Assembly: GCA_026874595.1 (NCBI GenBank)
Contig: CM049320.1
Coordinates: 42,914,714-42,978,713, forward strand
DNA from: Sipunculus nudus
Taxonomy: Eukaryota; Annelida; Sipuncula; Golfingiida; Sipunculidae
Length of the DNA: 64,000 nucleotides
Direction of reading: 5' to 3'
The first letter of the stretch is position 1. Each line of letters opens with the position of its first letter. The notes under the pieces were generated by a model. That model was given only the letters and a program-made list of their open reading frames with translations, was not told where the DNA came from and did no database searches. Both the position numbers and the translations under genes were made by a program. Shown here in pieces: positions 30,109-57,955 of the stretch.

Positions 30109-30279
30109 GCCCTGGGATAGTACTTTCCTTTTTGGTAGCAGCAGGGGTGGTGGCTCTGGCAGCGGTGTGTTTTACAGAGTTTGCTACTCGCATCAGTAAG
30201 ACCGGCGGCACATATCTGTACACCTACTGCAGTCTTGGGGAGATCTGGGCGTTCCTGGTGGGCTGGGGTCTGCTCTGCA
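30109..30279 (+). CDS. SLC7A4-like: SLC7A4-like transporter, coding exon 2
   Basis: Encodes residues 66-122 and the first base of codon 123. It contains GPGIVLSFLVAAGVVALAAV (TM2) and CFTEFATRISKTGGTYLYTY, the conserved C(Y/F)xEFxxRxxxTGxxYxY block of SLC7A1-4/14, then the start of TM3, GEIWAFLVGWGLLC. The acceptor is the last of nine tandem copies. The donor is GTGAGT directly after TGC-A, phase 1. Compared with family members, about five residues (normally a xYxIG-like segment ahead of T/G-xxVA) are missing at the junction with exon 3, so a microexon in intron 2 may be unrecognised. Confidence 0.9.
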
Positions 30280-34403: not shown

Positions 34404-35983
34404 CTAGTGTTGCTAGTGCAGCAACTAATGCCAAAGCATGGAGTGGATACCTGGACTCACTGTTTGACCACCAGATCAGGAATCTGACAGAGACCTATGT
34501 TGCTCACTGGACAGTGGGTAAACCTATTGGTTCCCACCCGGACTTTGTGGCATTGGGAGTCATATGTATCCTCATGGTGGTAGTATCTTTGGGTGCTCAG
34601 TGTACAGCCAGATTTAACCATATATTTGCAGGGCTTAATGTGCTAGTTCTCATGTTTGTGACAATAACTGGGCTAGCTCATGCCAACATTTCTAACTGGA
34701 CATCTAACAGTACCGGTGGATTCTTGCCATATGGAGTCAAAGGAGTTCTAGCTGGGTCGGCTTCAGCCTACTGGGCAATGACGGGATTTGAAAGTATTTC
34801 TGTTGCAAATGAGGAAACTAAAGATCCGTTAAAGTCCATCCCTTGTGCAACAGCTGCAGCAATAACCACTGTTACTCTGTTGTATATCGGAACCAGTTCA
34901 TCACTCACGTTAATGACATCCTACAAAAATGTGGAAGTCAGGGCACCATTACCAGGAGCTTTCGCAGATATTAACTTAACATGGGCCCAATACATCGTGG
35001 CCATTGGTCCTCTATTTGGCTTCACCACAACCTTACTTGGGACTGTGTATTCCTATACCAGACTCAGCTATACAATATCTCACCATGGCCTCTTGCCTCA
35101 GATTTTAGGTAAGCTAAACAGCAGAACAAAAGTACCAGTCAATGCTGTGCTGATCGGAGGAAGCCTGATGGCATTAATCGCCGTGTTCTTAGACATCAGG
35201 GACACCATTGACTTTGCGGTTAACCTGACCTTGTTACAGTATTTATTAATCGCATCTTGTGTTCTTGTTCTTCGGTATCAGCCATCAGACTCCCATCTGT
35301 TGGACCTGCCAGGTTTCCTGGACAACAGCATGAAACGTGACAGCGACGGGAAATGTGACAGTGAAGAGGAAGTTGTGCTGCTTGATGTTCCAGGAGCATT
35401 GAAAGGCATACACAAGGACCCTGATACAACACAGCTAGCAAACTCCAGTAATAACAAAACAAACAGTACATCAGAACTCATGCCATCTAAGGCCCCACAA
35501 GGGGAGGATAATGCTCTGTTCTCATCTGATGATGAACAATCAGGTTTATCAAGACACAGACATCCATCCACCAGCAGTGACATTCTAACAAATGTACATG
35601 AAGATGAAGTTGGAAGAAGTCCTCATAATAAACCCAGGTCACATTCACCCACAGAGGATTTGATATTTAGGTCTTCTACTGCGCTGCAAGTTCCATCAGG
35701 TCATACCTTGAACAGTGCATTAAATGCAGGCCAATTAAAAGACACATTCAGATGCCTGCAGCCAGTCTCAATCCCTCCTGCTGGATGCTGTGTGAAGATT
35801 TCCATTGTCCTCTCTATTGTCTGCATGACACTTTTGTTATTAGTGGTGGTGTTTGCTCATGTCCAGTTGGCTCAGGGGGCATGGTGGCTTATTGCTACAG
35901 TTGTCATATTAATTATCCTCATCATCATCCAAGGATTCATGATCTGGACTCATCGCCAAAATATATACAAACTCAAGTTCAAG
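34404..35983 (+). CDS. SLC7A4-like: SLC7A4-like transporter, coding exon 3 (main transmembrane exon)
   Basis: Encodes residues 124-649 plus the end of codon 123. It opens with SVASAATNAKAWSGYLDSLF and HQIRNLTETYVAHW, closely resembling vertebrate SLC7A4 after TM3. Further helices follow, including GVICILMVVVSLGAQ, NVLVLMFVTITGLAHA and YWAMTGFESISVANEETKDP, the conserved FxGFDxxAxxxEExxNP region (TM6 and after). NWTSNST gives candidate glycosylation sites. A hydrophilic insert rich in Ser/Asp/Glu runs from about residue 415 to 580, then two helices (ISIVLSIVCMTLLLLVVVFA and WWLIATVVILIILIIIQGF). The acceptor is TTTCATTTCAG and the donor GTTAGT after TTC AAG, phase 0. The ~165-residue loop is the least conserved part. 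Confidence 0.93.
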
Positions 35984-36030: not shown

Positions 36031-38125
36031 GTTTTTAGCTCAGCTGACTGAAAGTCATCTGAGCTATAGCGATCACTCTTTGTCCGTCGTCCGTCTGTCC
36101 GTCTGTCTGTCTGTCCGTCTGTCTGTCTGTCCGTCTGTCCGTCTGTCCGTCCGTTAACCAGGCACAAATCGTAACCGCTGGACCTAGAACCTTGTAACTT
36201 GGGATTCTGAGAGGTCCATAAAAAATCTCCTTGGAAACCAGAAATTAGGTCTCTGTTTCCCATATCCTTCGAGCTATGTGGCCCCAAATACCCCCAGAAA
36301 AGTAAAAAATTTCATACAAAAACTTCAATATCTCATTAACTACTTGACTGATGGTCATGATTTTTGGCATACATATTGATCATGAGATGTTACATCACTT
36401 CCTGCAGACTGGTGGCGCCACCTGTATTTTTCGATTTTTTACGAATTTTTTTCTCTATTTTTGAGACCTTTAAAAATGTGAACATCTGTTAACAAGGCAC
36501 AAATCATAAAGACTGGACTTAGAATCTTAATTCTTGACACACTGAGAGGTCCATGAAAAATCTCCTTGGAAACCAGAAATAAGGTCTCTGTTACCCATAT
36601 CCTTTGAGCTATCGGGCCCCAAAGTACCCCCCAGAATAGTAAAAAATTTCATACAAAAACTGCAATATCTCAATAACTACATCACTGATGGTCTTCATTT
36701 TTGGCATACATATTGATCATGAGATGTTCGATCAGTTCCTGCAGACTGGTGGCGCCACCTGTACTGTTTGATTTTTTACGATTTTTTCCTCTATTTTTGA
36801 GACCTTTGAGGATGCTGTCATCTGTAAGCGTGGCACAAATCGTAACGACTGGACCTAGAATCTTTATTTTCGACACACTAAGAGACCTATGAAAAGTCTC
36901 CATGGAAACCAGAAATTAGGTCTCTGTTACCCATATCCTTCGAGCTATGGGGCCCAAAATTACCCCCCAGAATAGTCAAAAATTTCATACAAAAACTTCA
37001 ATATCTCATTAACTACATCACTGATGGTCATGATTTTCGACATACATATTGATCATGAGATGTTTCATCAGTTTGTGCAGACTGGTGGCGCCACCTGTAT
37101 TTTTTAATGTTCACGAATTGTTTTCTCCATTTTTGAGACCTTTAAGGATGTAGTTATCTGTCAACAGGGTACAAATCGTAACGACTGGACCTAGAATCTT
37201 CGTTCTTGACACACAGGGAGACCCATGATAAGTCTCCATGGAAACCTGAAATTTGGTCTCTGTTACCCATATCCTTTGAGCTATGGCACTCCAAAGTACA
37301 GCTCAGAATAATGGAAAATTTGATACAAAAGCTAAAGTATCTGAACAACTAATGCAGAGATAACCATAATTGTTTGCATGGATATTGATCATGGAGTGTT
37401 TCATAAGTTTCTGCAGACTGGTGGCACCACCTGTATTTGTTCGTTTTTTTTTACGAAATTTTTCTGTATTTTTGAGACCTTTAAAGATATGAACATCTGT
37501 TAACAGGGCACAAATCATAAAAACTGGACCAAGAATCTTCATTCTTGACACACAGGGAGACCCATGAAAAGTCTCCATGGAAACTTGAAATTAGGTCTCT
37601 GTTACCCATATTCTTTAAGCTGTATGGGTCCAAAATACCCCCCCCACCATGAATAATGGAAAATTTGATACAAAAACTGCAGTATTTCAATAACTACAAC
37701 ACTGATGGTCATGATTTTCGGCATACATATTGATCATGAGCTGTTCCATCAGTTTCTGCAGACTGGGTGTGCCACCTCTATTTTTTTTCAAATTTTTACG
37801 AATTTTTTTCTTTTTTTTGAGACCTTTTAAGATGTGGTTATCTGTCAACAGGGTACAAATCGCAACAACTGGACCTAGAATCTTCATTCTTGTCATGCAA
37901 GGAGGCCCATGAAAGGTGCCTGTGGAAACTTGAAATTAGGTCTCTGTTACCCATATCCTTCAAGCTATAGGACTCCGAAGTATCCCTCAGAATAATGGAC
38001 AATTTGAAACAAAAACTGAAGTATCTGAACAACTAATGCAGAGATCACCATGATTTTTTGCATGGATATTGACCATTAAGTGTTTTTATTAGTTTCTGCA
38101 GACTGGTGGAGCCACCTGTATTTTT
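36031..38125. repeat. ~340-bp tandem repeat, six units, with GGTGGCGCCACCTGTA box
   Basis: The box GGTGGCGCCACCTGTA or close variants occurs at about 36,411, 36,748, 37,083, 37,422, 37,766 and 38,106, a spacing of 335-344 bp. Each unit also carries ACCTAGAATCTT, GGAAACCNGAAATTAGGTCT, CTGTTACCCATATCCTT, AGCTATGGG and ATATTGATCATGAGATGTT. The first unit is preceded by TTTTTAGCTCAGCTGACTGA and a (GTCC/GTCT)n run at about 36,085-36,152. The many short minus ORFs are phase-shifted repeat translations. It lies in intron 3. Confidence 0.9.
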
Positions 38126-39310
38126 GTATCCGCCAAAACGAAGTTTTGCAGATACTATGTTTCTGACCGAGTTCCTCCGCCGTGGCGGCGTTCGTTTCCA
38201 GAGAGCTCGTCGGAGACTAATGGACCAATTTTTCCCAAACTTACACCTATTATCGGGTCACATGTGAACTGGTGCCTAACCAATTTGCATTGACCTCTGA
38301 CCTTTCCTCTCTATCCAGTGTCCATTTGTGGGTCTGTTTCCACTCATAAACCCTCATATCTCGGGAACCGTTTGACCGATCAGGAAATAAAATTGATACA
38401 AATGTAGCCCTTGGATTGCTTTATAACATACACAAAAAATGGTGGCGCCACCTGTAACCATGTTTCCACAGTGTCCATCTGTTCATCTGCCTTGGGTTAA
38501 AATCACTCATATCTCTGCAGTGAATTGACTAATTCACCTGAAATTCGTCATGTGTATACATCCAGGATAGCTTTCTTGATTTTATGACAGGTGGCGCCAC
38601 CTACGTTCACGTTCACGCTGATGACATCCAAGCTTATATCTCGGGAACCGTTTGACCGATCAGGAAATAAAATTTATACAAATGTAGCCCTTTGATAGCT
38701 CTGTAACATACACAAAAAATGGTGGCGCCACCTGTAACAATGTTTGCACAGCGTCTGTCTGTTAGTCTGCCGTGGCCTAAAATTACTCATTTCCCTGTAG
38801 TGGTTCGACATAACTGCCTAAAATTTTGCAGGTTTATACATTGTGGACAGCTTTCTTGATTTTATGACAGGTGGCGCCACCTACATTCTAGTTAACGCTG
38901 GACACATCCAAGCTCATATCTCAGGAACCATTTGACCGATTGGGCCAAAATTGTGCATGTGTTTAGATCTCACATAGGTCTTTATCATACACAAAACTGG
39001 AGGGGTTACCTGCAAAGATTTTTGCACAGTGTTTGTCTGTTTGTCTGCCATGGGCAAAAATCGCTCATATACATGTAGTGGTTTGGCTTTTCTGCCTAAA
39101 ATTTTGCAGGTGTATACAACTTGGACAGATTTCTGGATATGTGGTAGGTGGCACAACCTACATACACATTTAGGCTGCAGACATCCATGCTAATATGCAA
39201 CATACCTCACTCTATTTCCCCTTGCCACTCAATCCATGCCTCACTATCCGATTTTGGCAGATACATGTAGTCACTTGTCGGTTACCCGTATTCTAGTTTT
39301 AAAAGTTTAC
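38124..39310. mobile_element. Dispersed ~1.2-kb repeat element, copy A
   Basis: Starts with TGTATCCGCCAAAACGAAGT and ends with TTGGCAGATACATGTAGTCA, then CGTATTCTAG. It is alignable over its length with 59669-60858. The sub-terminal sequences GTATCCGCCAAAA and TTTTGGCAGATAC are near-perfect inverted repeats. The interior has several sub-repeats (ATATCTCGGGAACCGTTTGA, GACAGGTGGCGCCACCTAC) at 38,442, 38,591, 38,720 and 38,871. No transposase is seen. It appears to be a non-autonomous element, class undetermined. Confidence 0.7.
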
Positions 39311-39763: not shown

Positions 39764-39875
39764 GTCCCATGTGTACCAGTACTACCGCTGCTCAGCATGT
39801 TCAGTGTGCTGGTGTTAATGGTGAACTCAGGGTCAGTTAGTAGTTGGGTAGGCTGCCTGACCATCATGTTAATAG
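39764..39875 (+). CDS. SLC7A4-like: SLC7A4-like transporter, coding exon 4 (founder copy of the 81-bp satellite)
   Basis: Encodes residues 650-686 and the first base of Gly687: VPCVPVLPLLSMF, then SVLVLMVNSGSVSSWVG and CLTIMLI. This is the penultimate transmembrane region of CAT-like transporters, cognate to the PxLPxxSxxxNxxLMxxLxxxTWxRFxxWMxxG block. Acceptor TTATTAACCCAG; donor ATAG-GTAAGTAC, a strong site, phase 1. From 39,799 onward the exon, its donor and the first intron bases form the first 81-bp unit of the array that fills the following 11.5 kb. Reading through the donor would add about 40 residues and stop at TGA 39,995-39,997. Confidence 0.9.
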
Positions 39876-42800
39876 GTAAGTACAGTGTGCTGATGTTTAT
39901 GGTGAACCCAGGGTCAGTGAGTATTTGTGGAAGTTGCTTGGCCATCATGTTACTAGTTAGGTCTAGTGTCCTGGTGTTAATGGTGAACTTAGAGTGAGTG
40001 AGTAGCTGGGTAGGCTGCCTGGCCATCATGTTATTAGTTAGGTACAGTGTCCTGGTGTTAATGGTGAACTCAGAGTCCGTGAATAGCTGGGTAGGCTGCC
40101 TAGCCATCATGTTATTAGTTAGGTACAGTGTCCTGGTGTTAATGGTGAACTCAGGGTCAGTTAGGAGCTTGGGAGGCTGCCTGGCCATCGTGTTATTAGT
40201 TAGGTACAGTATGCTGGTGTTAATGGTGAACTCAGAGTCAGTGAGTAGCTGGGTAGGCTGCCTGGCCATCATGTTATTAGTTAGGTACAGTGTGCTGGTG
40301 TTATGGTGAACTCAGGGTCAGTTAGTAGCTTGGGAGGCTGCCTGGCCATCATGTTATTAGTTAGGTACAGTGTGCCGGTGTTAATGGTGAACTCAGGGTC
40401 AGTGAGTAGCTTGGGAGGCTGCCTGGCCATCATGTTATTAGTTAGGTACAGTGTGCTGGTGTTAATGGTGAACTCAGAGTCAGTGAATAGCTGGGGAGGC
40501 TGCCTGGCCATCATGTTATTAGTTAGGTACAGTGTGCTGATGTTAATGGTGAACTCAGGGTCAGTTGGTAGCTTGGGAGGCTGCCTGGCCATCATGTTAT
40601 TAGTTAGGTACAGTATGCTGGTGTTAATGGTGAACTCAGGGTCAGTGAGTAGCTGGGTAGGCTGCCTGGCCATCATGTTATTAGTTAGGTACAGTGTCCT
40701 GGTGTTAATGGTGAACTCAGAGTCCGTGAATAGCTGGGTAGGCTGCCTAGCCATCATGTTATTAGTTAGGTACAGTGTCCTGGTGTTAATGGTGAACTCA
40801 GAGTCAGTGAGTAGCTGGGGAGGCTGCCTTGCCATCATGTTATTAGTTAGGTACAGTGTGCTGGTGTTAATGGTGAACTCAGGGTCAGTTAGGAGCTTGG
40901 GAGGCTGCCTGGCCATCGTGTTATTAGTTAGGTACAGTATGCTGGTGTTAATGGTGAACTCAGAGTCAGTGAGTAGCTGGGTAGGCTGCCTGGCCATCAT
41001 GTTATTAGTTAGGTACAGTGTGCTGGTGTTATGGTGAACTCAGGGTCAGTTAGTAGCTTGGGAGGCTGCCTGGCCATCATGTTATTAGTTAGGTACAGTG
41101 TGCCGGTGTTAATGGTGAACTCAGGGTCAGTGAGTAGCTTGGGAGGCTGCCTGGCCATCATGTTATTAGTTAGGTACAGTGTGCTGGTGTTAATGGTGAA
41201 CTCAGAGTCAGTGAATAGCTGGGGAGGCTGCCTGGCCATCATGTTATTAGTTAGGTACAGTGTGCTGATGTTAATGGTGAACTCAGGGTCAGTTGGTAGC
41301 TTGGGAGGCTGCCTGGCCATCATGTTATTAGTTAGGTACAGTATGCTGGTGTTAATGGTGAACTCAGGGTCAGTGAGTAGCTGGGTAGGCTGCCTGGCCA
41401 TCATGTTATTAGTTAGGTACAGTATGCTGGTGTCAATGGTGAACTCAGGGTCTGTGAGTAGCTGGGGAGGCTGCCTGGCCATCATGTTATTATTTAGGTA
41501 CGGTGTGCTGGTGTTAATGGCGAGCTCAGGGTCAGTTAGTAGCTTGGGAGGCTGCCTGGCCATCATGTTATTAGTTAGGTACAGTGTCCTGGTGTTAATG
41601 GTGAACTCAGAGTCAGTGAGTAGCTTGGGAGGCTGCCTGGCCATCATGTTATTAGTTAGGTACAGTGTGCTGGTGTTAATGGTGAACTCAGGGTCAGTTA
41701 GTAGCTTGGGAGGCTGCCTGGCCATCATGTTATTTTCATTAGGTACAGTATGCTGGTGTTAATGGTGAACTCAGAGTCAGTGAGTAGCTTGGGAGGCTGC
41801 CTGGCCATCATGTTATTAGTTAGGTACAGTGTGCTGGTGTTAATGGTGAACTCAGGGTCAGTTAGTAGCTTGGGAGGCTGCCTGGCCATCATGTTATTAG
41901 TTAGGTACAGTATGCTGGTGTTAATGGTGAACTCAGAGTCAGTGAGTAGCTTGGGAGGCTGCCTGGCCATCATGTTATTAGTTAGGTACAGTGTGCTGGT
42001 GTTAATGGTGAACTCAGGGTCAGTTAGTAGCTTGGGAGGCTGCCTGGCCAACATGTTATTAGTTAGGTACAGTGTGCTGATGTTAATGGTGAACTCAAAG
42101 TCTGTGATTAGCTGGGGAGGCTGCCTGGCCATCATGTTATTAGTTAGGTACAGTATGCTGGTGTTAATGGTGAACTCAGGGTCAGTGAGTAGCTTGGCAG
42201 GCTGCCTGGCCATCATGTTATTAGTTAGGTAGAGTGTCCTGGTGTTAACGGTGAACTCAGGGTCAGTGAGTAGCTTGGGAGGCTGCCTGGCCATCATGTT
42301 ATTAGTTAGGTACAGTGTGCTGGTGTTAATGGTGAACTCAGAGTCAGTGAGTAGCTTGGGAGGCTGCCTGGCCATCATGTTATTAGTTAGGTAAAGTGTG
42401 CTGGTGTTAATGGTGAACTCAGGGTCAGTTAGTAGCTTGGGAGGCTGCCTGGCCATCATGTTATTAGTTAGGTACAGTGTGCTGGTGTTAATGGTGAACT
42501 CAAAGTCTGTGATTAGCTGGGGAGGCTGCCTGGCCATCATGTTATTAGTTAGGTACAGTATGCTGGTGTTAATGGTGAACTCAGAGTCAGTGAGTAGCTG
42601 CGGAGGCTGCCTGGCCATCATGTTATTAGTTAGGTACAGTGTCCTGGTGTTAATGGTGAACTCAGAGTCAGTGAGTAGCTGGGGAGGCTGCCTAGCCATC
42701 ATGTTATTAGTTAGGTACACTGTGCTGGTGTTAATGGTGAACTCAGGGTCAGTTAGTAGCTTGGGAGTCTGCCTGGCCATCATGTTGTTAGTTAGGTACA

Positions 42801-45800
42801 GTATGCTGGTGTTAATGGTGAACTCAGAGTCAGTGAGTAGCTTGGGAGGCTGCCTTGCCATCATGTTATTAGTTAGGTACAGTGTGCTGGTGTTAATGGT
42901 GAACTCAGGGTCAGTTAGTAGCTTGGGAGGCTGCCTGGCCATCATGTTATTAGTTAAGTACAGTGTGCTGATGTTAATGGTGAACTCAGAGTCAGTGAGT
43001 AACTTGGGAGGCTGCCTGGCCATCATGTTATTAGTTAGGTACAGTGTGCTGATGTTAATGGTGAACTCAGGGTCAGTTAGTAGCTTGGGAGGCTGCCTGG
43101 CCATCATGTTATTAGTTAGGTACAGTATGCTGGTGTTAATGGTGAACTCAGGGTCAGTTAGTAGCTTGGGAGGCTGCCTGGCCATCATGTTATTAGTAAG
43201 GTACAGTATGCTGGTGTTAATGGTGAACTCAAGAGTCAGTGAGTAGCTGGGTAGGCTGCCTGGCCATCATGTTATTAGTTAGGTACACTGTGCTGATGTT
43301 AGTGGTGAACTCAGAGTCAGTTAGTAGCTTGGGAGGCTGCCTGGCCATCATGTTATTAGTTAGGTACGGTATGCTGGTGTTAATGGTGAACTCAGAGTCA
43401 GTGAGTAGCTGGGTAGGCTGCCTGGCCATCATGTTATTAGTTAGGTACAGTGTGCTGGTGTTAATGGTGAACTCAGAGTCAGTGAGTAGCTTGGGAGGCT
43501 GCCTGGCCATCATGTTATTAGTTAGGTACAGTATGCTGGTGCTAATGGTGAACTCAGAGTCAGTGAGTAGCTGGGTAGGCTGCCTGGCCATCATGTTATT
43601 AGTTAGGTACAGTGTGCTGGTGTTAATGGTGAACTCAGGGTCAGTGAGTAGCTTGGCAGGCTGCCTGGCCATCATGTTATTAGTTAGGTACAGTGTGCTG
43701 GTGTTAATGGTGAACTTAGAGTCAGTGAATAGCTAGGGAGGCTGCCTGGCCATCATGTTATTAGTTAGGTACAGTGTGCTGGTGTTAATGGTGAACTCAG
43801 GGTCAGTTAGTAGCTTGGGAGGCTGCCTGGCCATCATGTTATTAGTTAGGTACAGTATGCTGGTGTTAATGGTGAACTCAGGGTCAGTGAGTAGCTGGGT
43901 AGGCTGCCTGGCCATCATGTTATTAGTTAGGTACAGTATGCTGGTGTTAATGGTGAACTCAGGGTCTGTGAGTAGCTGGGGAGGCTGCCTGGCCATCATG
44001 TTATTATTGAGATACAGTGTGCTGGTGTTAATGGCGAGCTCAGGGTCAGTTAGTAGCTTGGGAGGCTGCCTGGCCATCATGTTATTAGTTAGGTACAGTA
44101 TGCTGGTGTTAATGGTGAACTCAGAGTCAGTGAGTAGCTTGGAAGGCTGCCTGGCCATCATGTTATTAGTTAGATACAGTGTGCTGGTGTTAATGGTGAA
44201 CTCAGGGTCAGTTAGTAGCTTGGGAGGCTGCCTGGCCATCATGTTATTAGTTAGGTACAGTATGCTGGTGTTAATGGTGAACTCAGAGTCAGTGAGTAGC
44301 TTGGGAGGCTGCCTGGCCATCATGTTATTAGTTAGTTAAAGTGTGCTGGTGTTAATGGTGAACTCAGGGTCAGTTAGTAGCTTAGGAGGCTGCCTGGCCA
44401 TCATGTTATTAGTTAGGTACAGTGTGCTGATGTTAATGGTGAACTCAAAGTCTGTGATTAGCTGGGGAGGCTGCCTGGCCATCATGTTATTAGTTTGGTA
44501 CAGTATGCTGGTGTTAATGGTGAACTCAGAGTCAGTGAGTAGCTGAGGAGGCTGCCTGGCCATCATGTTATTAGTTAGGTAGAGTGTCCTGGTGTTAATG
44601 GTGAACTCAGGGTCAGTTAGTAGCTTAGGAGGCTGCCTGGCCATCATGTTATTTGTTAGGTACAGTGTGCCGGTGTTAATGGTGAACTCAAGAGTCCGTG
44701 AATAGCTGGGTAGGCTGCCTGGCCATCATGTTATTAGTTAGGTACAGTGTGCTGATGTTAATGGTGAACTCAGGGCCAGTGAGTAGTTGGGTAGGCTGCC
44801 TGGCCATCATGTTATTAGTTAGGTACAGTGTGCTGGTGTTAATGGTGAACTCAGAGTCAGTGAGTAGCTGGGGAGGCTGCCTGGCCATCATGTTATTAGT
44901 TAGGTACAGTGTCCTGGTGTTAATGGTGAACTCAGGGTCAGTGAGTAGCTTGGGAGGCTGCCTGGCCATCATGTTATTAGTTAGGAACAGTGTGCTGGTG
45001 TTAATGGTGAACTCAGAGTCAGTGAGTAGCTTGGGAGGCTGCCTGGCCATCATGTTATTAGTTAGGTACAGTGTGCTGGTGTTAATGGTGAACTCAGGGT
45101 CAGTTAGTAGCTTGGGAGGCTGCCTGGCCATCATGTTATTAGTTAGGTACAGTGTGCTGGTGTTAATGGTGAACTCAGGGTCAGTGAGTAGCTGGGTAGG
45201 CTGCCTGGCCATCATGTTATTAGTTAAGTACAGTGTGCTGATGTTAATGGTGAACTCAGAGTCAGTGAGTAGCTTGGGAGGCTGCCTGGCCATCATGTTA
45301 TTAGTTAGGTACAGTGTGCTGATGTTAATGGTGAACTCAGGGTCAGTTAGTAGCTTGGGAGGCTGCCTGGCCATCATGTTATTAGTTAGGTACAGTATGC
45401 TGGTGTTAATGGTGAACTCAGGGTCAGTTAGTAGCTTGGGAGGCTGCCTGGCCATCATGTTATTAGTAAGGTACAGTATGCTGGTGTTAATGGTGAACTC
45501 AAGAGTCAGTGAGTAGCTGGGTAGGCTACCTGGCCATCATGTTATTAGTTAGGTACACTGTGCTGATGTTAATGGTGAACTCAGAGTCAGTTAGTAGCTT
45601 GGGAGGCTGCCTGGCCATCATGTTATTAGTTAGGTACAGTATGCTGGTGTTAATGGTGAACTCAGAGTCAGTGAGTAGCTTGGGAGGCTGCCTGGCCATC
45701 ATGTTATTAGTTAGGTACAGTATGCTGGTGTTAATGGTGAACTCAGAGTCAGTGAGTAGCTGGGTAGGCTGCCTGGCCATCATGTTATTAGTTAGGTACA

Positions 45801-48800
45801 GTGTGCTGGTGTTAATGGTGAACTCAGGGTCAGTGCGTAGCTTGGGAGGCTGCCTGGCCATCATGTTATTAGTTAGGTACAGTGTGCTGGTGTTAATGGT
45901 GAACTCAGAGTCAGTGAATAGCTGGGGAGGCTGCCTGGCCATCATGTTATTAGTTAGGTACAGTGTGCTGGTGTTAATGGTGAACTCAGGGTCAGTTAGT
46001 AGCTTGGGAGGCTGCCTGGCCATCATGTTATTAGTTAGGTACAGTATTCTGGTGTTAATGGTGAACTCAGAGTCAGTGAGTAGCTGGGTAGGCTGCCTGG
46101 CCATCATGTTATTAGTTAGGTACAGTGTGCTGGTGTTTATGGTGAACTCAAAGTCTGTGAGTAGCTGGGGAGGCTGCCTGGCCATCATGTTATTAGTTAG
46201 GTACAGTGTACTGGTGTTAATGGTGAACTCAGAGTCAGTGAGTAGCTTGGGAGGCTGCCTGGCCATCATGTTATTAGTTAGGTACAGTGTCCTGGTGTTA
46301 ATGGTGAACTCAGGGTCAGTGAGTAGCTGGGTAGGCTGCCTGGCCATCATGTTATTAGTTAGGTACAGTATGCTGGTGTTAATGGTGAACTCAGGGTCAG
46401 TGAGTAGCTGGGTAGGCTGCCTGGCCATCATGTTATTATTTAGGTACAGTGTGCTGGTGTTAATGGTGAACTCAGGGTCAGTTAGTAGCTTGGGAGGCTG
46501 CCTGGCCATCATGTTATTAGTTAGGTACAGTATGCTGGTGTTAATGGTGAACTCAGAGTCAGTGAGTAGCTGGGTAGGCTGCCTGGCCATCATGTTATTA
46601 GTTAGGTACAGTGTGCTGGTGTTAATGGTGAACTCAGGGTCAGTTAGTAGCTTGGGAGGCTGCCTGGCCATCATGTTATTAGTTAGGTACAGTATGCTGG
46701 TGTTAATGGTGAACTCAGAGTCAGTGAGTAGCTTGGGAGGCTGCCTGGCCATCATGTTATTAGTTAGGTACAGTGTGCTGGTGTTAATGGTGAACTCAGG
46801 GTCAGTGAGTAGCTTGGGAGGCTGCCTGGCCATCATGTTATTAGTTAGGTACAGTGTGCTGGGTTAATGGTGAACTCAGAGTCAGTGAGTAGCTTGGGAG
46901 GCTGCCTGGCCATCATGTTATTAGTTAGGTAAAGTGTGCTGGTGTTAATGGTGAACTCAGGGTCAGTAAGTAGCTTGGGAGGCTGCCTGGCCATCATGTT
47001 ATTAGTTAGGTACAGTGTGCTGGTGTTAATGGTGAACTCAAAGTCTGTGATTAGCTGGTGAGGCTGCCTGGCCATCATGTTATTAGTTAGGTACAGTATG
47101 CTGGTGTTAATGGTGAACTCAGAGTCAGTGAGTAGCTGGGGAGGCTGCCTGGCCATCATGTTATTAGTTAGGTACAGTGTCCTGGTGTTAATGGTGAACT
47201 CAGAGTCAGTGAGTAGCTGGGGAGGCTGCCTAGCCATCATGTTATTAGTTAGGTACACTGTGCTCGTGTTAATGGTGAACTCAGGGTCAGTTAGTAGCTT
47301 GGGAGGCTGCCTGGCCATCATGTTGTTAGTTAGGTACAGTATGCTGGTGTTAATGGTGAACTCAGAGTCAGTGAGTAGCTTGGGAGGCTGCCTGGCCATC
47401 ATGTTATTAGTTAGGTACAGTGTGCTGGTGTTAATGGTGAACTCAGGGTCAGTTAGTAGCTTGGGAGGCTGCCTGGCCATCATGTTATTAGTTAAGTACA
47501 GTGTGCTGATGTTAATGGTGAACACAGAGTCAGTGAGTAGCTTGGGAGGCTGCCTGGCCATCATGTTATTAGTTAGGTACAGTGTGCTGATGTTAATGGT
47601 GAACTCAGGGTCAGTTAGTAGCTTGGGAGGCTGCCTGGCCATCATGTTATTAGTTAGGTACAGTATGCTGGTGTTAATGGTGAACTCAGGGTCAGTTAGT
47701 AGCTTGGGAGGCTGCCTGGCCATCATGTTATTAGTAAGGTACAGTATGCTGGTGTTAATGGTGAACTCAAGAGTCAGTGAGTAGCTGGGTAGGCTGCCTG
47801 GCCATCATGTTATTAGTTAGGTACACTGTGTTGATGTTAATGGTGAACTCAGAGTCAGTTAGTAGCTTGGGAGGCTGCCTGGCCATCATGTTATTAGTTA
47901 GGTACAGTATGCTGGTGTTAATGGTGAACTCAGAGTCAGTGAGTAGCTTGGGAGGCTGCCTGGCCATCATGTTATTAGTTAGGTACAGTATGCTGGTGTT
48001 AATGGTGAACTCAGAGTCAGTGAGTAGCTGGGTAGGCTGCCTGGCCATCATGTTATTAGTTAGGTACAGTGTGCTCGTGTTAATGGTGAACTCAGGGTCA
48101 GTGAGTAGCTTGGGAGGCTGCCTGGCCATCATGTTATTAGTTAGGTACAGTGTGCTGGTGTTAATGGTGAACTCAGAGTCAGTGAATAGCTGGGGAGGCT
48201 GCCTGGCCATCATGTTATTAGTTAGGTACAGTGTGCTGGTGTTAATGGTGAACTCAGAGTCAGTGAGTAGCTTGGGAGGCTGCCTGGCCATCATGTTATT
48301 AGTTAGGTACAGTGTGCTGGTGTTAATGGTGAACTCAGGGTCAGTTAGTAGCTTGGGAGGCTGCCTGGCCATCATGTTATTAGTTAGGTACAGTGTGCTG
48401 ATGTTAATGGTGAACTCAAAGTCTGTGATTAGCTGGGGAGGCTGCCTGGCCATCATGTTAATAGTTAGGTACAGTATGCTGGTGTTAATGGTGAACTCAG
48501 AGTCAGTGAGTAGCTGGGGAGGCTACCTGGCCATCATGTTATTAGTTAGGTACAGTGTGCTGGTGTTAATGGTGAACTCAGGGTCAGTGAGTAGCTTGGG
48601 AGGCTGCCTGGCCATCATGTTATTAGTTAGGAACAGTGTCCTGGTGTTAATGTTGAACTCAGAGTCAGTTAGTAGCTTGGGAGGCTGCCTGGCCATCATG
48701 TTATTAGTTAGGTACAGTGTGCTGGTGTTAATGGTGAACTCAGGGTCAGTGAGTAGCTGGGTAGGCTGCCTGGCCATCATGTTATTAGTTAGGTACACTG

Positions 48801-51332
48801 TGCTGATGTTAATGGTGAACTCAGAGTCAGTTAGTAGCTTGGGAGGCTGCCTTGCCATCATGTTATTAGTTAGGTACAGTATGCTGGTGTTAATGGTGAA
48901 CTCAGAGTCAGTGAGTAGCTTGGGAGGCTGCCTGGCCATCATGTTATTAGTTAGGTACAGTATGCTGGTGTTAATGGTGAACTCAGAGTCAGTGAGTAGC
49001 TGGGTAGGCTGCCTGGCCATCATGTTATTAGTTAGGTACAGTGTGCTCGTGTTAATGGTGAACTCAGGGTCAGTGAGTAGCTTGGGAGGCTGCCTGGCCA
49101 TCATGTTATTAGTTAGGTACAGTGTGCTGGTGTTAATGGTGAACTCAGAGTCAGTGAATAGCTGGGGAGGCTGCCTGGCCATCATGTTATTAGTTAGGTA
49201 CAGTGTGCTGGTGTTAATGGTGAACTCAGAGTCAGTGAGTAGCTTGGGAGGCTGCCTGGCCATCATGTTATTAGTTAGGTACAGTGTGCTGGTGTTAATG
49301 GTGAACTCAAGGTCAGTTAGTAGCTTGGGAGGCTGCCTGGGCATCATGTTATTAGTTAGGTACAGTGTGCTGATGTTAATGGTGAACTCAAAGTCTGTGA
49401 TTAGCTGGGGAGGCTGCCTGGCCATCATGTTATTAGTTAGGTACAGTATGCTGGTGTTAATGGTGAACTCAGAGTCAGTGAGTAGCTGGGGTGGCTGCCT
49501 GGCCATCATGTTATTAGTTAGGTACAGTGTCCTGGTGTTAATGGTGAACTCAGGGTCAGTGAGTAGCTTGGGAGGCTGCCTGGCCATCATGTTATTAGTT
49601 AGGAACAGTGTCCTGGTGTTAATGTTGAACTCAGAGTCAGTTAGTAGCTTGGGAGGCTGCCTGGCCATCATGTTATTAGTTAGGTACAGTGTGCTGGTGT
49701 TAATGGTGAACTCAGGGTCAGTGAGTAGCTTGGGAGGCTGCCTGGCCATCATGTTATTAGTTAGGTACAGTGTGCTGGTGTTAATGGTGAACTCAGGGTC
49801 AGTGAGTAGCTTGGGAGGCTGCCTGGCCATCATGTTATTAGTTAGGTACAGTGTCCTGGTGTTAATGGTGAACTCAGAGTCAGTGAGTAGCTTGGTAGGC
49901 TGCCTGGCCATCATGTTATTAGTTAGGTACAGTGTCCTGGTGTTAATGGTGAACTCAGAGTCAGTGAATAGCTTTGGAGGCTGCCTGGCCATCATGTTAT
50001 TAGTTAGGTACAGTATGCTGGTGTTAATGGTGAACTCAGAGTCAGTGAGTAGCTTGGGAGGCTGCCTGGCCATCATGTTATTAGTTAGGTACAGTGTGCT
50101 GGTGTTAATGGTGAACTCAGGGTCAGTTAGTAGCTTGGGAGGCTGCCTGGCCATCATGTTATTAGTTAGGTACAGTATGCTGGTGTTAATGGTGAACTCA
50201 GAGTCAGTGAGTAGCTTGGTAGGCTGCCTGGCCATCATGTTATTAGTTAGGTACAGTGTGCTGGTGTTAATGGTGAACTCAGGGTCAGTTAGTAGCTTGG
50301 GAGGCTGCCTGGCCATCATGTTGTTAGTTAGGTACAGTATGCTGGTGTTAATGGTGAACTCAGAGTCAATGAGTAGCTTGGGAGGCTGCCTGGCCATCAT
50401 GTTATTAGTTAGGTACAGTGTGCTGATGTTAATGGTGAACTCAGAGTCAGTGAGTAGCTTGGGAGGCTGCCTGGCCATCATGTTATTAGTTAGGTACAGT
50501 GTGCTGATGTTAATGGTGAACTCAGGGTCAGTTAGTAGCTTGGGAGGCTGCCTTGCCATCATGTTATTAGTTAGGTACAGTATGCTGGTGTTAATGGTGA
50601 ACTCAGGGTCAGTTAGTAGCTGGGTAGGATGCCTGGCCATCATGTTATTAATTAGGTACACTGTGCTAATGTAATGGTGAACTCAGAGTCAGTTAGTAGC
50701 TTGGGAGGCTGCCTGGCCATCATGTTATTAGTTAGGTACAGTATGCTGGTGTTAATGGTGAACTCAGAGTCAGTGAGTAGCTTGGGAGGCTGCCTGGCCA
50801 TCATGTTATTAGTTAGGTACAGTATGCTGGTGTTAATGGTGAACTCAGAGTCAGTTAGTAGCTTGGGAGGCTGCCTGGCCATCATGTTATTAGTTAGGTA
50901 CAGTATGCTGGTGTTAATGGTGAACTCAGAGTCAGTGAGTAGCTTGGGAGGCTGCCTGGCCATCATGTTATTAGTTAGGTACAGTATGCTGGTGTTAATG
51001 GTGAACTCAGAGTCAGTGAGTAGCTGGGTAGGCTGCCTGGCCATCATGTTATTAGGTACAGTGTACTGGTGTTAATGGTGAACTCAGAGTCAGTGAGTAG
51101 CTGGGTAGGCTGCCTGGCCATCATGTTATTAGTTAGGTACAGTGTGCCGGTGTTAATGGTGAACTCAGGGTCAGTTAGTAGTTGGGTAGGCTTCCTGGCT
51201 ATCATGTTATTAGCTAGGCACAGTATGCTGGTGTTAATAGTGAACTCAGAGTCAGTGAGTAGCTGGGTAGGCTGCCTGGCTATCATGTTATTAGGTAGAT
51301 ACAGTGTGCTGGTACTGATGTTGAACTTGGGG
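39800..51332. repeat. 81-bp satellite derived from coding exon 4, about 140 copies
   Basis: The unit is CAGTGTGCTGGTGTTAATGG, TGAACTCAGGGTCAGTTAGT, AGCTTGGGAGGCTGCCTGGC, CATCATGTTATTAGTTAGGTA. The first unit is exon 4 and its donor. Recurrent variants are AGGGTCAGT(T/G)AG versus AGAGTCAGTGAG, CTTGGGAGG versus CTGGGTAGG versus CTGGGGAGG, and GTGCTGG, GTCCTGG or ATGCTGG. Higher-order structure is evident: 40,309-41,036 recurs at 41,037 (728 bp), and a one-base insertion CTCAAGAGTC recurs at 43,231, 45,501 and 47,769 (about 2,268 bp, 28 units). As 81 is a multiple of 3 and units lack stops in two frames, sense and antisense ORFs reach 965 and 712 codons. The sense peptide is the transmembrane segment SVLVLMVNSGSVSSLGG plus CLAIMLLVRY. 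Confidence 0.97.
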
Positions 51333-51351
51333 TACTTCTATAACTGGCCTG

Positions 51352-52173
51352 TGTTACAGGTGCTCTTTTTATTGTGTGACACGGGCGTGACTCATGTTGT
51401 GACACCCTCGCCGGGCAGTTTGTTACATTCGCAGTTTAATCTGTACTGGTTGAACTCTCATTGTCATGGCTAGCTTTGGGCTTTTTCGCCTGGTTGTGAG
51501 TCACGTGTGGACCCTGGTATGTAGGGACGCACACGGCAATGTTCTTCTAGATGGTTCCTGATGGTTCGTGTTTACTGTGTATTGTAGGATCTTTTAGACT
51601 GTTAGAGAAAAGGAAAATTCTCGGCTTGGGGTGAAGAGTATATAAAGGGGCTGTGTTTTAGAGCCAAGAGAGCAGCAGAGAAGATTTCCAGTGTACGCAG
51701 AAGCATGTGTGTCAGTAGCTGGGACCTTATCTGACGAGTGCGGCAATTATAGATTTTCTTCAAACTTTCTCCTGGATTTTGTGCATTTGGACTTCACTTT
51801 ACTTTTTGGATTGTTACAAGAGCTTTACACGGGACTGTCATTCTCCGAGAGTATATATTTAAAGAACATATCGTTGTGATGGTGGTGGTATCCAGGTAAT
51901 GGGCACTTTGTGTATTTTACTGTGTGATTGTATTGATTTCTTGTCATACTGCTGTTTTACTGTATAATTGTATTAATTTAGTGTATTGTAATGTTAGGGT
52001 TGTTTTAATAAATAAATTATGGTTATTTGTTAACAGAAAAACACTTACTTCTTTATTCATTCCCCTAGACATTTCACGCTGCCTAGTGTTACAGAATCTG
52101 AATTTTTTTATCTCCATTGCGGGATTTGTGTTCATCACGCATACGTGATCTGTTTATATTAGGTTCTGTAACA
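51352..52173 (+). mobile_element. Solo LTR (822 bp), same family as 26449-27222
   Basis: TGTTAC...GTAACA ends with a perfect 4-bp target duplication CCTG (51348-51351 and 52174-52177). A TATA box lies in GAAGAGTATATAAAGGGG (about 51,632-51,649) and a polyadenylation-type AATAAATAAA near 52,008. It sits immediately after the last partial 81-bp unit, in intron 4, in the same orientation as the transporter. Several indels distinguish it from the copy in intron 1. Confidence 0.92.
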
Positions 52174-52269: not shown

Positions 52270-53561
52270 TATGTCTGTACTCAGTGGTCTACTTCACATA
52301 GTCTCCTGTAGAATATGTGCATCTTCTCACTGTATATACTAGGGCTGCATCAATATACCAATACACATCAATTTGGTTACCAATACACCTCGCATGCTGT
52401 ATCTTTGTATCAATTAACAATTCCTGCAAACAAATATAGAGACAATGCTAACCTAAGCTATGATCATAATCTTGAGCTAGTTTTGTTTCTTTTGTTGGCC
52501 TTTTAAGACTTGAATAAGATCACATTTATTGTTGTATGATCAACTAGATAAGGGATGTATGTACACTTGCCAGTGCTTCCATGACAAACCGGCAAGTGTG
52601 AGCATTGACAGACAGATAATGTGAACGGTCCTCCATAGCGTTGATTGTATTTCTATCACTGAAATATGTATATGTACGGCATGTATTTCATTTTATGATT
52701 CATTATCATATCTCTGATTATTTTTTAAATATGAGCAAAGCAATGTCTTGAGGTCTTTTTATACCTGCACAGCCTGTACTAGATGAAAACAACTGTAATT
52801 GGGCGTCAAAGCCTAGTGAAAATCAACCATTACTTTACCAGGAGAAATGTGATTTTGGGATTCACATTCCCAGAAACATATGAAAACTGTGCTTTCATAA
52901 CATATAAGATAATGACCTGAATTCTTCCCATTAACCTACTAGGAAGGGGTTGAGGAAAGGACAAAAAAACAAAATCTAAATTTTAATACCTGATATTTAG
53001 TCCACTTTTAAACACATGAGGTTAAATAAATAGGAGATAAAACTTATCTAAATATTAAATATCTCATGCCATATATGAAATGAATGTTTTTGCCCATCAT
53101 TTGAAATGAGTGCCTACCAACCCTGAAGTGGACACTGCAGCACTATCTTATGGCGTCACTGATATGTGGATCACTTGAGCTAAACATAAGCATACGACTG
53201 CCTGAAATGCTCTGGCATATATTTGTATATATGTAAATATATATATATATATATGTAAGTATGTGTGTGTGTTTCTGTGTGTACACATAAATTATGGGTC
53301 TTTTTAATCACAAAAGTTTTAATAAGAAAATGATTCACAAAGAAAACTAAGCGTATCATCAATACGTATCAGATATCGCTTTAGGTGTATCACAATTCGT
53401 ATTGTACTAGAATAGGCTGACCAATACCTAGCCCTAGTAGATACACTAGTGTACTTCATGTGCAGTCTCCTGTCTAATATATCTGCTGTATTTTCTCTGT
53501 AGGTAGACTGCTGAACTTCACTTGCAGACTCCTGTGTAATATGTTTGTATTTTCTCTGTAG
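52270..53561 (+). repeat. Tandem copies of the exon-5 splice acceptor, split by a hAT insertion
   Basis: The exon-5 border TATTTTCTCTGTAG|GTACCGTGGTGTACTTTACA is preceded by a ~60-bp copy ending TGTATTTTCTCTGTAG|GTAGACTGCTG (AG at about 53,503). Before that is a copy with GTAGATACACTAGTGTACTT (53,437 onward), and, beyond the inserted element at 52340-53436, another with CTCAGTGGTCTACTTCACAT and AGTCTCCTGTAGAATATGTG (52,277-52,320). All share CAGTCTCCTGT(C/G)TAATAT-like sequence that matches exon 5 itself (CAGTCTCC at 53,586). Thus exon 5 and its acceptor were duplicated about three times upstream. Confidence 0.75.
52340..53436. mobile_element. hAT-like non-autonomous element (1.1 kb)
   Basis: Ends TAGGGCT...AGCCCTA, flanked by GTATATAC (52332-52339) and GTAGATAC (53437-53444), a 7-of-8 match consistent with an 8-bp hAT target duplication. 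Sub-terminal sequences carry repeated CCAATAC and CAATACGTATCAG-type motifs in both orientations. No transposase ORF is present. It interrupts the duplicated exon-5 acceptor series in intron 4. Confidence 0.75.
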
Positions 53562-53668
53562 GTACCGTGGTGTACTTTACATACAGTCTCCATCACAGCG
53601 TAGAGAATCACGTGTTCAGAGAAGACATCCAGTTGGAGGAAAGAGCTTTACTCCTTGACCAGGAATGA
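53562..53668 (+). CDS. SLC7A4-like: SLC7A4-like transporter, coding exon 5 (C-terminus)
   Basis: Completes Gly687 and encodes residues 688-721: TVVYFTYSLHHSVENHVF then REDIQLEERALLLDQE and TGA (53666-53668). GTVVYFTYSLHHS matches the last transmembrane helix of CAT-like transporters (IGxxIYFxYGIxHS), and the acidic EExxLL-type tail could serve as a dileucine sorting signal (ERALLL). The acceptor is TTTTCTCTGTAG. The splice from exon 4 across about 13.7 kb restores MLIGTVVYF, confirming that the satellite is intronic rather than coding. A 3' UTR follows that may include the 45-bp minisatellite; no polyadenylation site was fixed. Confidence 0.9.
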
Positions 53669-53783: not shown

Positions 53784-55350
53784 AGGTTAACACACTAACA
53801 CAAACTGCTTTGTCAGTTTAACAAGGGAATGACTGAGGGATTAACACAGCTGGCTTGTCAGTATAACAAGGAAATGACAGAGGGACTAACACAGCTGGCT
53901 TGTCATTATTGTAAGGGAATGACAGAGGGACTAACAAAGCTGGTTTGTCAGTAAAACAAGAGAATGACTAAAGGACTAACACAGCTGGCTTGTCAGTATA
54001 ACAAGGGAAAGACTGAGGGACTAACACAGCTGGCTTGTCAGTATAACAAGGAAATGACAGAGGGACTAACACAGCTGGCTTGTCATTATTGTAAGGGAAT
54101 GACAGAGGGACTAACACAGCTGGTTTATCAGTAAAACAAGAGAATGACTAAAGGACTAACACAGCTGGCTTGTCAGTATAACAAGGGAAAGACTGAGGGA
54201 CTAACACAGCTGGCTTGTCAGTAAAACAAGAGAATGACTGAAGGATTAACACAGCTAGCTTGTCATTATAACAAGGAAATGACAGGGACTAACACAGCTG
54301 GCTTGTCAGTAAAACAAGAGAATGACTAAAGGACTAACACAGCTGGCTTGTCAGTATAACAAGGGAAAGACTGAGGGACTAACACAGCTGGTTTGTCAGT
54401 AAAACAAGAGAATAACTGAAGGATTAACACAGCTGGCTTGTCATTATAACAAGGAAATGACAGGGACTAACACAGCTGGCTTGTTAGTAAAACAAGAGAA
54501 TGACTAAAGGACTAACACAGCTGGCTTGTCAGTAAAACAAGGGAAAGACTGAGTGACTAACACAGCTGGCTTGTCAGTAAAACAAGAGAATGACTGAAGG
54601 ATAAACACGGCTGGCTTGTCATTATAACAAGGAAATGACAGGCACTAACACAGCTGGCTTGTCAGTATAACAAGGGAATGACTGAGGGACTAACACAGCT
54701 GGCTTGTCAGTAAAACAAGAGAATGACTGAGGGACTAACACAGCTGGCCTGTCAGTATAACAAGGAAATGACAGATGGACTAACACAGCTGGCTTGTCAT
54801 TATAACAAGGAAATGACAGAGGGACTAACACAGCTGGCTTGTCAGTAAAACAAGAGAATGACTGAAGGACTAACACAGCTGGCTTGTCAGTATAACAAGG
54901 AAATGACAGGGACTAACACAGCTGTCTTGTCAGTAAAACAAGAGAATGACTAAAGGACTAACACAGCTGGCTTGTCAGTATAACAAGGGAAAGACTGAGG
55001 GACTAACACAGCTGGCTTGTCAGTAAAACATGAGAATGACTGAAGGACTAACACAGCTGGCTTGTCAGTATAACAAGGGAATGACAGAGGGACTAACACA
55101 GCTGGCTTGTCAGTAAAACAAGAGAATGACTAAAGGACTAACACAGCTGGCTTGTCAGTATAACAAGGGAAAGACTGAGGGACTAACACAGCTGGCTTGT
55201 CAGTAAAACAAGAGAATGACTTAAGGACTAACACAGCTGGCTTGTCAGTATAACAAGGAAATGACAGAGGGACTAACACAGCAGGCTTGTCATTATTGTA
55301 AGGGAATGACAGAGGGACTTACACAGCTGGCTGGTCAGTAAAACTAGGGA
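53784..55350. repeat. 45-bp minisatellite, about 35 copies, downstream of the transporter stop
   Basis: The unit is GGACTAACACAGCTGGCTTG, TCAGTATAACAAGGGAATGA, CTGAG (45 bp). Shorter 42-bp forms lack AGG before GACTAAC, and the recurrent alternates are TCATTATAAC and TCAGTAAAAC. Unit types alternate in runs, indicating a higher-order arrangement. It starts ~115 bp after the stop codon, so it may lie in the 3' UTR. The minus ORF at 54876-54622 simply translates the repeat. Confidence 0.95.
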
Positions 55351-57955
55351 ATGCTTGAGTTTGCACTAATACATTTTGATACTTATTTGTCATCTTCCAT
55401 CATCTCTGATAACCAGTGTGTGACAATATGTATGTCTTATTGTGCATATTTATCAAAAAGCTTGTATGAAGGGGGTAGAAACTGTCCCAGACCTGTGTCA
55501 GATGTCCCTAAGGGGGGCCTAAATGTTACATAACACAGGGACACCTACTGATTATAAGACCAGCAGAGCATTAGAACCGACACCCTCCCCCCCCCCCCCC
55601 CCCCACCACCACTAACCATTTGTTTGTTTCTGATCCTGTGAATCTAAAAATTAACATTCTACAGTAATTATATATAAAAACATATATTCCATTGGCCAAT
55701 GTGGGCACATTGTATGTACCATGATATGTAAATAATAAAAGGCAGCATCCCACATTTTACACAGATGCCAGCTAGTAGCTGGACAATGTATGCTTTTGTA
55801 GCTGTGAAGGTCCCTCATAATATTCCCACATCAGAAATTAAACATTTGCATTCATTCTATAAAGATCAAAGAGCATTTTTCATCACTATCATAAGCTCCT
55901 TGATATTTATATAAAAATACAGTATACAGTTCTGCTTCAACATACTTCTCCTACCTAGATGATTTTAGTCAATACAAGATGGCAGCACAGGTCTACCCAA
56001 ACTCTGTCACATTGTAATGTATCATATAAACACCAGGTGACAGCACACGTTTATTAGCCTCATGAAATATCTTTCTGGCCTTCTCACATTCTAGTAAGGT
56101 TAAGTATAAAATTTACTAGCAGTGAAAGGCAAATTGTTCCTGTGGCAATGCCATGTTTTTATTTAATGCACTTTATTTTTATTTCTGGGACTTCAGAATT
56201 ATAAAAACGGATCAGGGTAGGAGAAGTCTAATCATTGGAAGATTTTGTGATTTTATTTGTGATATGCATGTCCAGGGTAAGATTCTTGTTGGCTACAAGA
56301 AAGATAACATTGGCTTTATATTTACCAGAAAAGAAACAGTCATAACCAATTGTTAACAAAGGTGTTGTGCATTGTTTGGATGAAATTAAACAATTGTCAG
56401 ATGTCCACTTGAAAGGGCATATGGTCTGCTGAGTGTGCAATCAGTGTACCAACTGTATTGATAGGTGGAATAATATTTTTTTTATCGTGTGGGACCTGTT
56501 CATGTGTGTAACCATTCAAGTGGTTCTAATGAGTTTGGTATGAGATGTTCACATGTTTAGGCAATATCATATAATGTATTTATATAAATGTATTTAACAT
56601 GTATGTTTATTTTTATTTGTATAGTAACTGTGATGAAATATTTTCAATGCCTATGTCATTTAATTTCAAGTTAGATAATCTGGGTGCCTCATGAGACCAG
56701 ACCTTGTCAATTTAGTGGCAGGTTAACTATGTTATTTAAAGATGTACTTAAATATTAGCTCAAGGATACAGTATCAGCTTATTCCTGAAGTCTTATGAAA
56801 AGTCATCAACGCTACAGGCACTTTACGCTCAGACCCATGGAAACTTGTAATACTGTTATGAAGTGGTAACTTTAAATACTGGTAATTAAACAAACTCTAA
56901 ATTCAGTGACAGAAACATTTTGATCCACAGGTATCAGGATGTATGAGGCCTGATATTCAGACAGAGCCAAAGAATATTAATGTCATCACGGAACCAAGTA
57001 ACTAATGGTAATTCATTATGTTTGTAAAGCCTTAATATACTCTCACAAATTAGCTCTAAATTGGTTTCTGTGATGAAATTATCAAATCATTTTCATATGA
57101 GTCTGGGAATAGGATTTTCAGGTCGTCTATGACTGGGTGTATGTCAAGTCAGATTTGGAATTTACCAGAGAACTTTAGACCAATCAAATCAAATGAAATT
57201 GTTAAGGTAATTTTGACGTAATTGTGACCTACTTTGGGTCATCCGATAAGGTTAAGCTTTCATGACGAAATGCAGAAACATGGATATATATGTCCCGTGA
57301 CAGCTCTGTATCAAAACTATCTGTAGTGTGCACTTTGGGAGAGTCAGAGAGACGGACCTTCTCTGCCAGGCCCTGCAGACTACCGGACACCTCTCTGCTG
57401 TGAATAAAGACTTCTGTCATCAAACTGGTCTTGGAACATTGTTAGCAACACGCAACAGTAACAGTATGTGGTCCACACACAAATATGATGACAGATCCAC
57501 ACAAGTACTTGGTGCCAAACTATTGAATGAACTTTGACCTGTCCTTCAATCTCCAATGTCATCGTAAGCTGCATTCAAAGGGCATCATGAGGCTCATAAT
57601 CATAAAGGTTGATTAATTTTAACATTGGGTCATCTTTCAAGAACTCAGTGCAATATACTTATTTCAAATGAGATGTAATGGCCTTAATGTTGATTTTGGA
57701 CAGAAGTAAAGTTTCAGTTTTATTTATGTGACATTTAATACATATTTTTTATTTGATTCAAATGTATTGTGAAAATTATTAATTGAGTGGGCTTTATGGT
57801 TTTAACTGTAGCTTTTCTTATGATAAGGCAAATTTATACATACATAAACATGAACACGTTTTAAAATGTTGTTAATAGTAAAACTGTCAACAAAATGATT
57901 TTGTTAAAGAACCTTAAGGACATATTCCAGATTCCTGCCCAAAACTGGTATTATC
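55351..57955. other. Gene-free stretch, possible distal 3' UTR
   Basis: No coding exon is recognised. A C-homopolymer run lies at 55,587-55,604. An AATAATAAAAGG stretch at about 55,732 and several AT-rich blocks could contain the transporter polyadenylation signal. The small ORFs at 57229-57574 have no known motif. Confidence 0.4.

Follow-up and report, generated by a model that had tools for sequence, protein, structure and literature searches.

Introduction

Minisatellites that span exon-intron borders have been described in amphioxus under the name "mirage", where they are found in Adh3, in the globin genes BflGb6 and BflGb9 and in troponin C, with similar repeats in PGBD5 (PMC3087553, PMC3902484). 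As these accounts present them, mirages affect 5' as well as 3' borders, the unit at the end of the array is the authentic border and homogenisation spares the edge units; both papers, as far as the accounts given there extend, place the name within cephalochordates (PMC3087553, PMC3902484). Two more features of mirages are mRNA that is spliced normally in spite of the repeats and array lengths that vary between haplotypes or in somatic tissue. In human segmentally duplicated genes, minisatellite expansion alters the length of exons or introns, sometimes at the exon-intron border itself, and human internal tandem repeats, which average four units of ~30 bp and lie mainly inside exons, are given as a source of new introns in the sections of PMC2812944 on which we draw. 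A related idea is the Rogers model, which, as given in PMC3087553, explains intron gain via tandem duplication of AG|GT-bearing segments. Intronic minisatellites and duplications of the fourth exon are reported for earthworm metallothionein genes (PMC12783039). The excerpts of PMC12783039, PMC3039753 and PMC7931591 on which we rely do not describe border-spanning arrays, and we make no claim that the literature lacks long border arrays.

Here, we analyse a 64-kb stretch of DNA (C15:42914714-42978713; hereafter the window, whose positions are numbered from its first base) from a genome of 1.43 Gb on 153 contigs, in which an exon of a predicted transporter gene runs into an array of 81-bp units, and we compare this array with the systems named above.

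Results and discussion

An 81-bp array starts within exon 4 of a CAT-like gene

The forward strand of the window carries a five-exon gene, predicted to be CAT/SLC7A4-like, on which all features given below by window position also lie. Once joined, the exons yield an open frame of 721 aa, and the spliced protein matches the Pfam families AA_permease_2 (134.3 bits), AA_permease (117.1 bits) and AA_permease_C (40.9 bits, residues 648-699, with the whole profile covered). The coding part of exon 1 (25566-25761) has the frame MGKGSSV...DQA, with a presumed start codon, and ends at the donor G|GTAGGA; its assignment is supported by the AA_permease_2 match over the spliced protein. Exon 2 (30109-30279) lies between the acceptor TTTCAG and the donor A|GTGAGT and joins its neighbours in phase, and exon 3 (34404-35983) is a long open frame that contains the CAT body, with the acceptor TTTCAG and the donor AAG|GTTAGT. 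Exon 4 (39764-39875) encodes a predicted transmembrane segment, VPCVPVLPLLSMFSVLVLMVNSGSVSSWVGCLTIMLIG. Its donor GT is at 39876 and its final G is shared with exon 5 (53562-53668), which is joined in phase (G|GT) and runs to a TGA codon ending at 53668. Exon 4 is supported by the AA_permease_C match over exons 4 and 5, by borders shared with the paralogous exon L011 and by the structure of CAT1, since residues 1-53 of the exon 4-5 peptide align with residues 541-592 of the solved protein (9fqt_A, E 2.5e-5). When the genome was searched exon by exon with the AA_permease_C profile, four matches were obtained and the window's own exon 4 was absent from them, which indicates that exon 4 is a diverged member of the family. 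Exon 4 is putatively still in use, to judge by a reading frame that is intact, by its splice signals and by its match to the family. Two further CAT-family exons, L012 and L013, lie on the minus strand ~36 and ~24 kb upstream of the window (C15:42878452 and 42890208), so near that the transporter may belong to a local cluster.

Using TRF, we found a single array at 39802-51327 with a period of 81, 142.3 copies and 93% matches, and segmentation divided the same region into 142 units up to position 51301, the exon unit included, which corresponds to a span of ~11.5 kb. The founder unit (39802-39882) consists of 74 exon bases and seven intron bases, the latter being the donor GTAAGTA, and is followed by 141 further units of ~81 bp (39883-51301) and by a decayed partial unit at the array edge (51302-51333), in which 26-32 bases can be aligned with the unit or with the exon. 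Unit length is exactly 81 bp in 132 of the 142 units, the remainder measuring 80 bp (four units), 82 bp (four), 83 bp and 77 bp. Just beyond the downstream edge, an 822-bp element (51352-52173) with TG...CA termini is flanked by a 4-bp target duplication, CCTG, and is judged by its ends to be a solo LTR. A preliminary description of this DNA had placed the first 81-bp unit in exon 4 with about 140 more behind it and had joined exons 3 and 5 to exon 4 in phase; the TRF and segmentation results (one plus 141 units) and the open frame with its family matches bear out both statements. The array it reported is likewise present, while its estimate of 70-95% similarity between units was slightly loose, since identity of the 141 non-exon units to the exon unit ranges from 81.5 to 93.8% (mean 88.6%).

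The unit is confined to one locus and exon 4 is most likely its source

A genome-wide search for the unit, which the preliminary description had called for, was carried out with a 24-mer from the unit core at up to two mismatches, a cutoff that more diverged copies would escape. It returned 135 forward matches and no reverse matches in the genome, precisely as many as the window alone contains (135), and the reversed pattern, used as a control, had no genomic match. At the stringency tested, the unit core thus occurs nowhere else and the 81-bp unit forms a single-locus array rather than a dispersed satellite; it does not lie at many genomic places, as the unit of dispersed high-copy satellite DNA does.

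The polarity of the relationship between exon and array can be read from four paralogous CAT exons in the genome. All four carry a GT behind the first base of the glycine codon that is common to the family, and L011 also agrees with exon 4 in the placement of its acceptor. None of the four has a repeat that crosses the coding match: L011 is accompanied by a short 16-bp repeat, L012 by a TTA run and L013 by no repeat, and the ATG-type repeat near L014, seen also as a BLAST self-hit, stops 31 bp before the coding match. When the exon unit and the 137 stop-free array units were scored against the paralogs, the exon unit outscored all array units in comparison with L011 and L013, and 133 of 137 in comparison with L012. 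The comparison with L014, for which the slice was shifted, did not discriminate between exon and array, as 93 of the 137 array units equalled or exceeded the exon. Residues shared by the paralogs are mostly lost from the array, with the W kept in 50 of 141 units and the terminal G in one of 141. Taken together, paralog borders, paralog scores and the loss of shared residues suggest that exon 4 most likely came first and gave rise to the array, as had been proposed when a coding transmembrane exon with its donor was named as founder. Similarity to the exon shows no gradient along the array (rho 0.009).

Units differ from one another by ~6% in pairwise comparison, and 91 distinct aligned sequences are found among the 142. 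The 141 non-exon units have a mean identity of 96.2% to their own majority sequence, those least like it being unit 2 (84%) and unit 141 (88%). Unit 142, the last full unit, reaches 91% and ties with the interior units 52 and 134, so that an edge effect is evident in units 2 and 141 but not clearly in the third edge unit. Within the array, an exact block of 563 bp recurs nine units away and exact blocks also recur at 2268-2270 bp (28 units). Divergent edge units and recurring exact blocks are the pattern given by unequal exchange and block duplication. A regular higher-order repeat was considered and rejected: only weak lags were seen (56, 61, 28, 40, 12, 67 and 9 units, among others), at which mean identity was 0.944-0.949 versus 0.940 overall.

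The donor is dead in nearly all array units

The donor +1 position carries T in 139 of the 141 array units, C in one and G in one. As unit 2, which adjoins the exon, already has T, the change most likely preceded amplification. The splice donor itself had been described as amplified together with the exon; this holds for the founder unit, which contains the donor, and does not hold for the working form. To compare the remaining GT sites, we calculated pairing energies with the sequence that we take to be the 5' end of U1. Of 1507 GT sites counted over exon and array, the exon-4 donor pairs best, at -11.9 kcal/mol compared with -8.9 for the next site, and the donors of exons 1, 2 and 3 reach -7.7, -7.1 and -8.1 kcal/mol. 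Among the 1489 GT sites past the first unit, 30 equal or exceed the exon-3 donor in pairing strength, and the corresponding numbers for the exon-1 and exon-2 donors are 75 and 233. U1 pairing is therefore predicted to favour the exon-4 donor, though not absolutely, and since GT sites in the array rival the gene's other donors, splicing need not ignore the array.

Repeats at the borders of exons 2 and 5 and of a kinase exon

The exon-4 array had been considered singly, which turned out to be incomplete, as repeats copied from acceptor borders occur at exons 2 and 5 of the same gene and a donor array is found at a kinase exon on another contig. At the end of intron 1, TRF detected a run of nine copies, each ~53 bp long, of the acceptor border of exon 2 (TGTGATTTCAG|GCCC...; 29659-30124), the last of which is the real start of exon 2. 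The AG is intact in eight of the nine, and the exon-2 border query scored 102 against a shuffled maximum of 28. The acceptor border of exon 5 is present in two tandem copies (TTTTCTCTGTAG; 53437-53561), the second being the real acceptor, and the two score 64 against each other (shuffled maximum 27, with 0 of 1000 shuffles reaching 64). A distant, decayed copy of this border appears to lie in intron 4 at 52284-52334 as judged by a shuffle test, in which its exon part scored 29 (0 of 1000 shuffles) and its intron part, a second-best match, likewise scored 29 (5 of 1000); with the nearest copies left out, the exon-5 border as a whole is marginal (30, where shuffles reach at most 29). At the remaining five borders of the gene, no long match was obtained. 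Among them, the exon-1 donor, the exon-3 donor and the exon-4 acceptor scored 28, 26 and 27 over ~20 bases, against shuffled maxima of 26, 21 and 24, and the exon-2 donor and the exon-3 acceptor stayed under their own shuffled maxima.

In the kinase locus (L050, positions 1-3031), the exon (C4:93861713-93861946, minus strand) continues with its last bases and its donor into a 65-bp repeat array. A 37-base pattern taken from this border had 48 matches at up to three mismatches, including the exon's own border, and all of them lie in the 4.6 kb between C4:93857187 and 93861742. The donor motif AAG|GTAGATAC is retained in 38 of the 45 copies that were read. Given that the kinase array keeps its donor motif in most copies, the T at donor +1 in the exon-4 array may be a founder accident, and since splice motifs are mostly intact in both the kinase and the exon-2 arrays, death of the donor is unnecessary for an array to be tolerated.

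The kinase array came from a survey of 74 exon loci, comprising 70 of at least 138 kinase matches and the four CAT matches. In many of the kinase loci the match is one long exon or the borders lie out of view; at least three loci contain stops (L020, L033 and L041) and 20 have flanks of only ~400 bp. Among these 74 loci, two (L045 and L050) have a TRF array (period at least 15, at least 2.5 copies) no more than 60 bp from the coding match, and an array takes in coding bases in one; that of L045 begins a few bases past the donor and holds no exon bases. BLAST self-hits near the coding match were also obtained for L043, L046, L057 and L066, and reading the sequences of L046 and L057 revealed no border copies.

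Mirage-type repeats thus recur in the CAT-like gene and in at least one place elsewhere in the genome, which is a richer finding than the exon-4 array alone. Three borders of one gene and a single kinase exon show such repeats, and a tentative extrapolation would make splice borders sites at which minisatellites and long arrays arise repeatedly in this genome, where splicing would shield border duplications from selection and donor-dead copies would perhaps be favoured in the largest arrays; we regard this generalisation as rather doubtful.

Origin of the array

We consider it very probable that the array belongs to the mirage type of minisatellite, as a very long example, and that it was seeded by a duplication of the exon 4 / intron 4 border and grew by unequal exchange. 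A tandem duplication ~81 bp long would once have spanned this border. Splicing from the first donor, on the exon side, to exon 5 would have remained possible, which would have left the extra copy intronic and presumably harmless. An early copy would then have lost its donor GT, as the T common to nearly all units, unit 2 included, suggests, and the descendants of this donor-dead copy would have multiplied by unequal exchange and block duplication, processes whose pattern the array displays. Selection would keep the exon unit, and the remaining units would drift as non-coding DNA. A similar process may have made the acceptor repeats of exons 2 and 5 and the kinase donor array elsewhere. We propose that the outermost site stays available for splicing after a border-crossing tandem duplication and that this explains why such duplications are tolerated.

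That the array is instead older and of another source, with its edge unit recruited as, or overwriting, the end of exon 4, would accord with the divergence of exon 4, which together with exon 5 reaches 40.9 bits to PF13906 as compared with 54.9-75.2 bits for the paralog exons and was missed by the genome search with AA_permease_C, and with the lack of preference for exon over array in the fourth paralog. But exon 4 retains the family phase, the W and the terminal G, which most array units do not, its alignment with CAT1 begins at the first residue and the unit core has no other place in the genome, so that we hold such an origin to be very unlikely. Somewhat less improbable, though still unlikely, is a length produced by the assembler through expansion or collapse of the repeat. 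Exact blocks as long as 563 bp could be taken as a sign of this, yet the number of distinct unit sequences and the size of the contig (64 Mb) speak against it, and an artefact would not produce the founder relation.

The least credible of the readings considered is that the array is expressed and translated as a run of transmembrane segments. As 81 bp equal 27 codons, sense open frames extend up to 969 aa, and only four of the 141 units contain an in-frame stop. The antisense strand is nearly as open, however, with a frame of 719 aa, and long open frames follow from the open frame of the founder and a period divisible by three. Moreover, all ten off-length units among the 142 break the frame, and read-through from exon 4 runs into a TGA (39995) within the third unit. 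Constraint on codon positions is absent: position 2 is the most variable in array units, and nonsynonymous and synonymous variants stand at 46:22, a ratio of 2.09 where 2.65 would be expected without selection. Frame-breaking units, similar openness of the antisense strand and unconstrained codon positions led us to reject the coding reading. The array peptide had no Pfam match. Hence, the array is most likely non-coding, and no function of it is indicated.

Comparison with mirages and other border repeats

Read as a border-seeded minisatellite, the exon-4 array fits those anatomical features of mirages that we tested (as described in PMC3087553 and PMC3902484), its size and dead donors being the notable differences. 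Its unit crosses the exon-intron border, the exon unit is the end unit of the array with the further copies intronic and the border supported by paralog exons, donor (exon 4) and acceptor (exons 2 and 5) borders are both affected, and the edge units 2 and 141 are the least homogenised, with unit 142 less distinct. As to length instability, the one haplotype analysed contains long exact blocks. In contrast, the 142 units compare with six and three in the two BflGb6 haplotypes for which these papers give numbers, the unit is almost entirely exonic (74 of 81 bp) with a donor that is dead in nearly all copies, and three borders are affected in one gene. The human repeats resemble the array in that a minisatellite grows at an exon-intron border, and differ in that an old intron is enlarged here, by 11.4 kb (PMC2812944). 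The same distinction separates the array from the Rogers model, with which it shares duplication over splice signals (PMC3087553): an old intron grows and none is created. The preliminary description had called the origin unusual. A coding-exon origin stands, but a kind without precedent is unsupported, because amphioxus mirages and human border minisatellites are known (PMC3902484, PMC2812944).

The locus offers a readable case of coding sequence turning into repetitive DNA, in which founder, border and direction can all be named. Some satellites derive from transposons, and tandem arrays thus grow from a non-satellite source; the exon-4 array is alike in having grown from a source other than a satellite and differs in two respects, its source being a coding exon of the host and its units having stayed in place. 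A further published study reportedly deals with tandem duplication as a route of intron gain. The array would carry the known range of mirages, so far a few copies, up to the length of a satellite, with several in one gene, and, together with the kinase array, it provides material on how splicing handles dozens to hundreds of copied borders, mostly intact in the kinase array and mostly dead in the exon-4 array. If our reading is true and the host is not a lancelet, the mirage process would be wider than the accounts in PMC3087553 and PMC3902484 state. On the host, searches with the egg lysin, GFP and mollusc haemocyanin families matched neither this genome nor any control genome and thus carry no weight, and a COX1 search yielded no host sequence.

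Other repeats in the window and further observations

Tandem repeats with a period of at least 15 make up 29.6% of the window versus 6.1% of the flanks surveyed (235,027 bases), which makes the window unusually repeat-rich. An array of 45-bp units (34.8 copies) lies just past the gene's stop codon at 53794-55353, and an array of 22-bp units (30.4 copies) at 12241-12897. Tandem repeats of ~277-336 bp were found at 4880-5767, 36161-38125, 38356-39196 and 59968-60703; they have in common a motif like GTGGCGCCACCT and perhaps constitute one recurrent repeat family. Elsewhere in the assembly, nine stop-free COX1 frames of 577-578 aa with near-equal scores are distributed over eight contigs (C60, C61, C62, C66, C72, C74, C75 and C89) and look like bacterial sequence, from a symbiont or a contaminant; an additional stop-free COX1 frame of 489 aa is located on C123.
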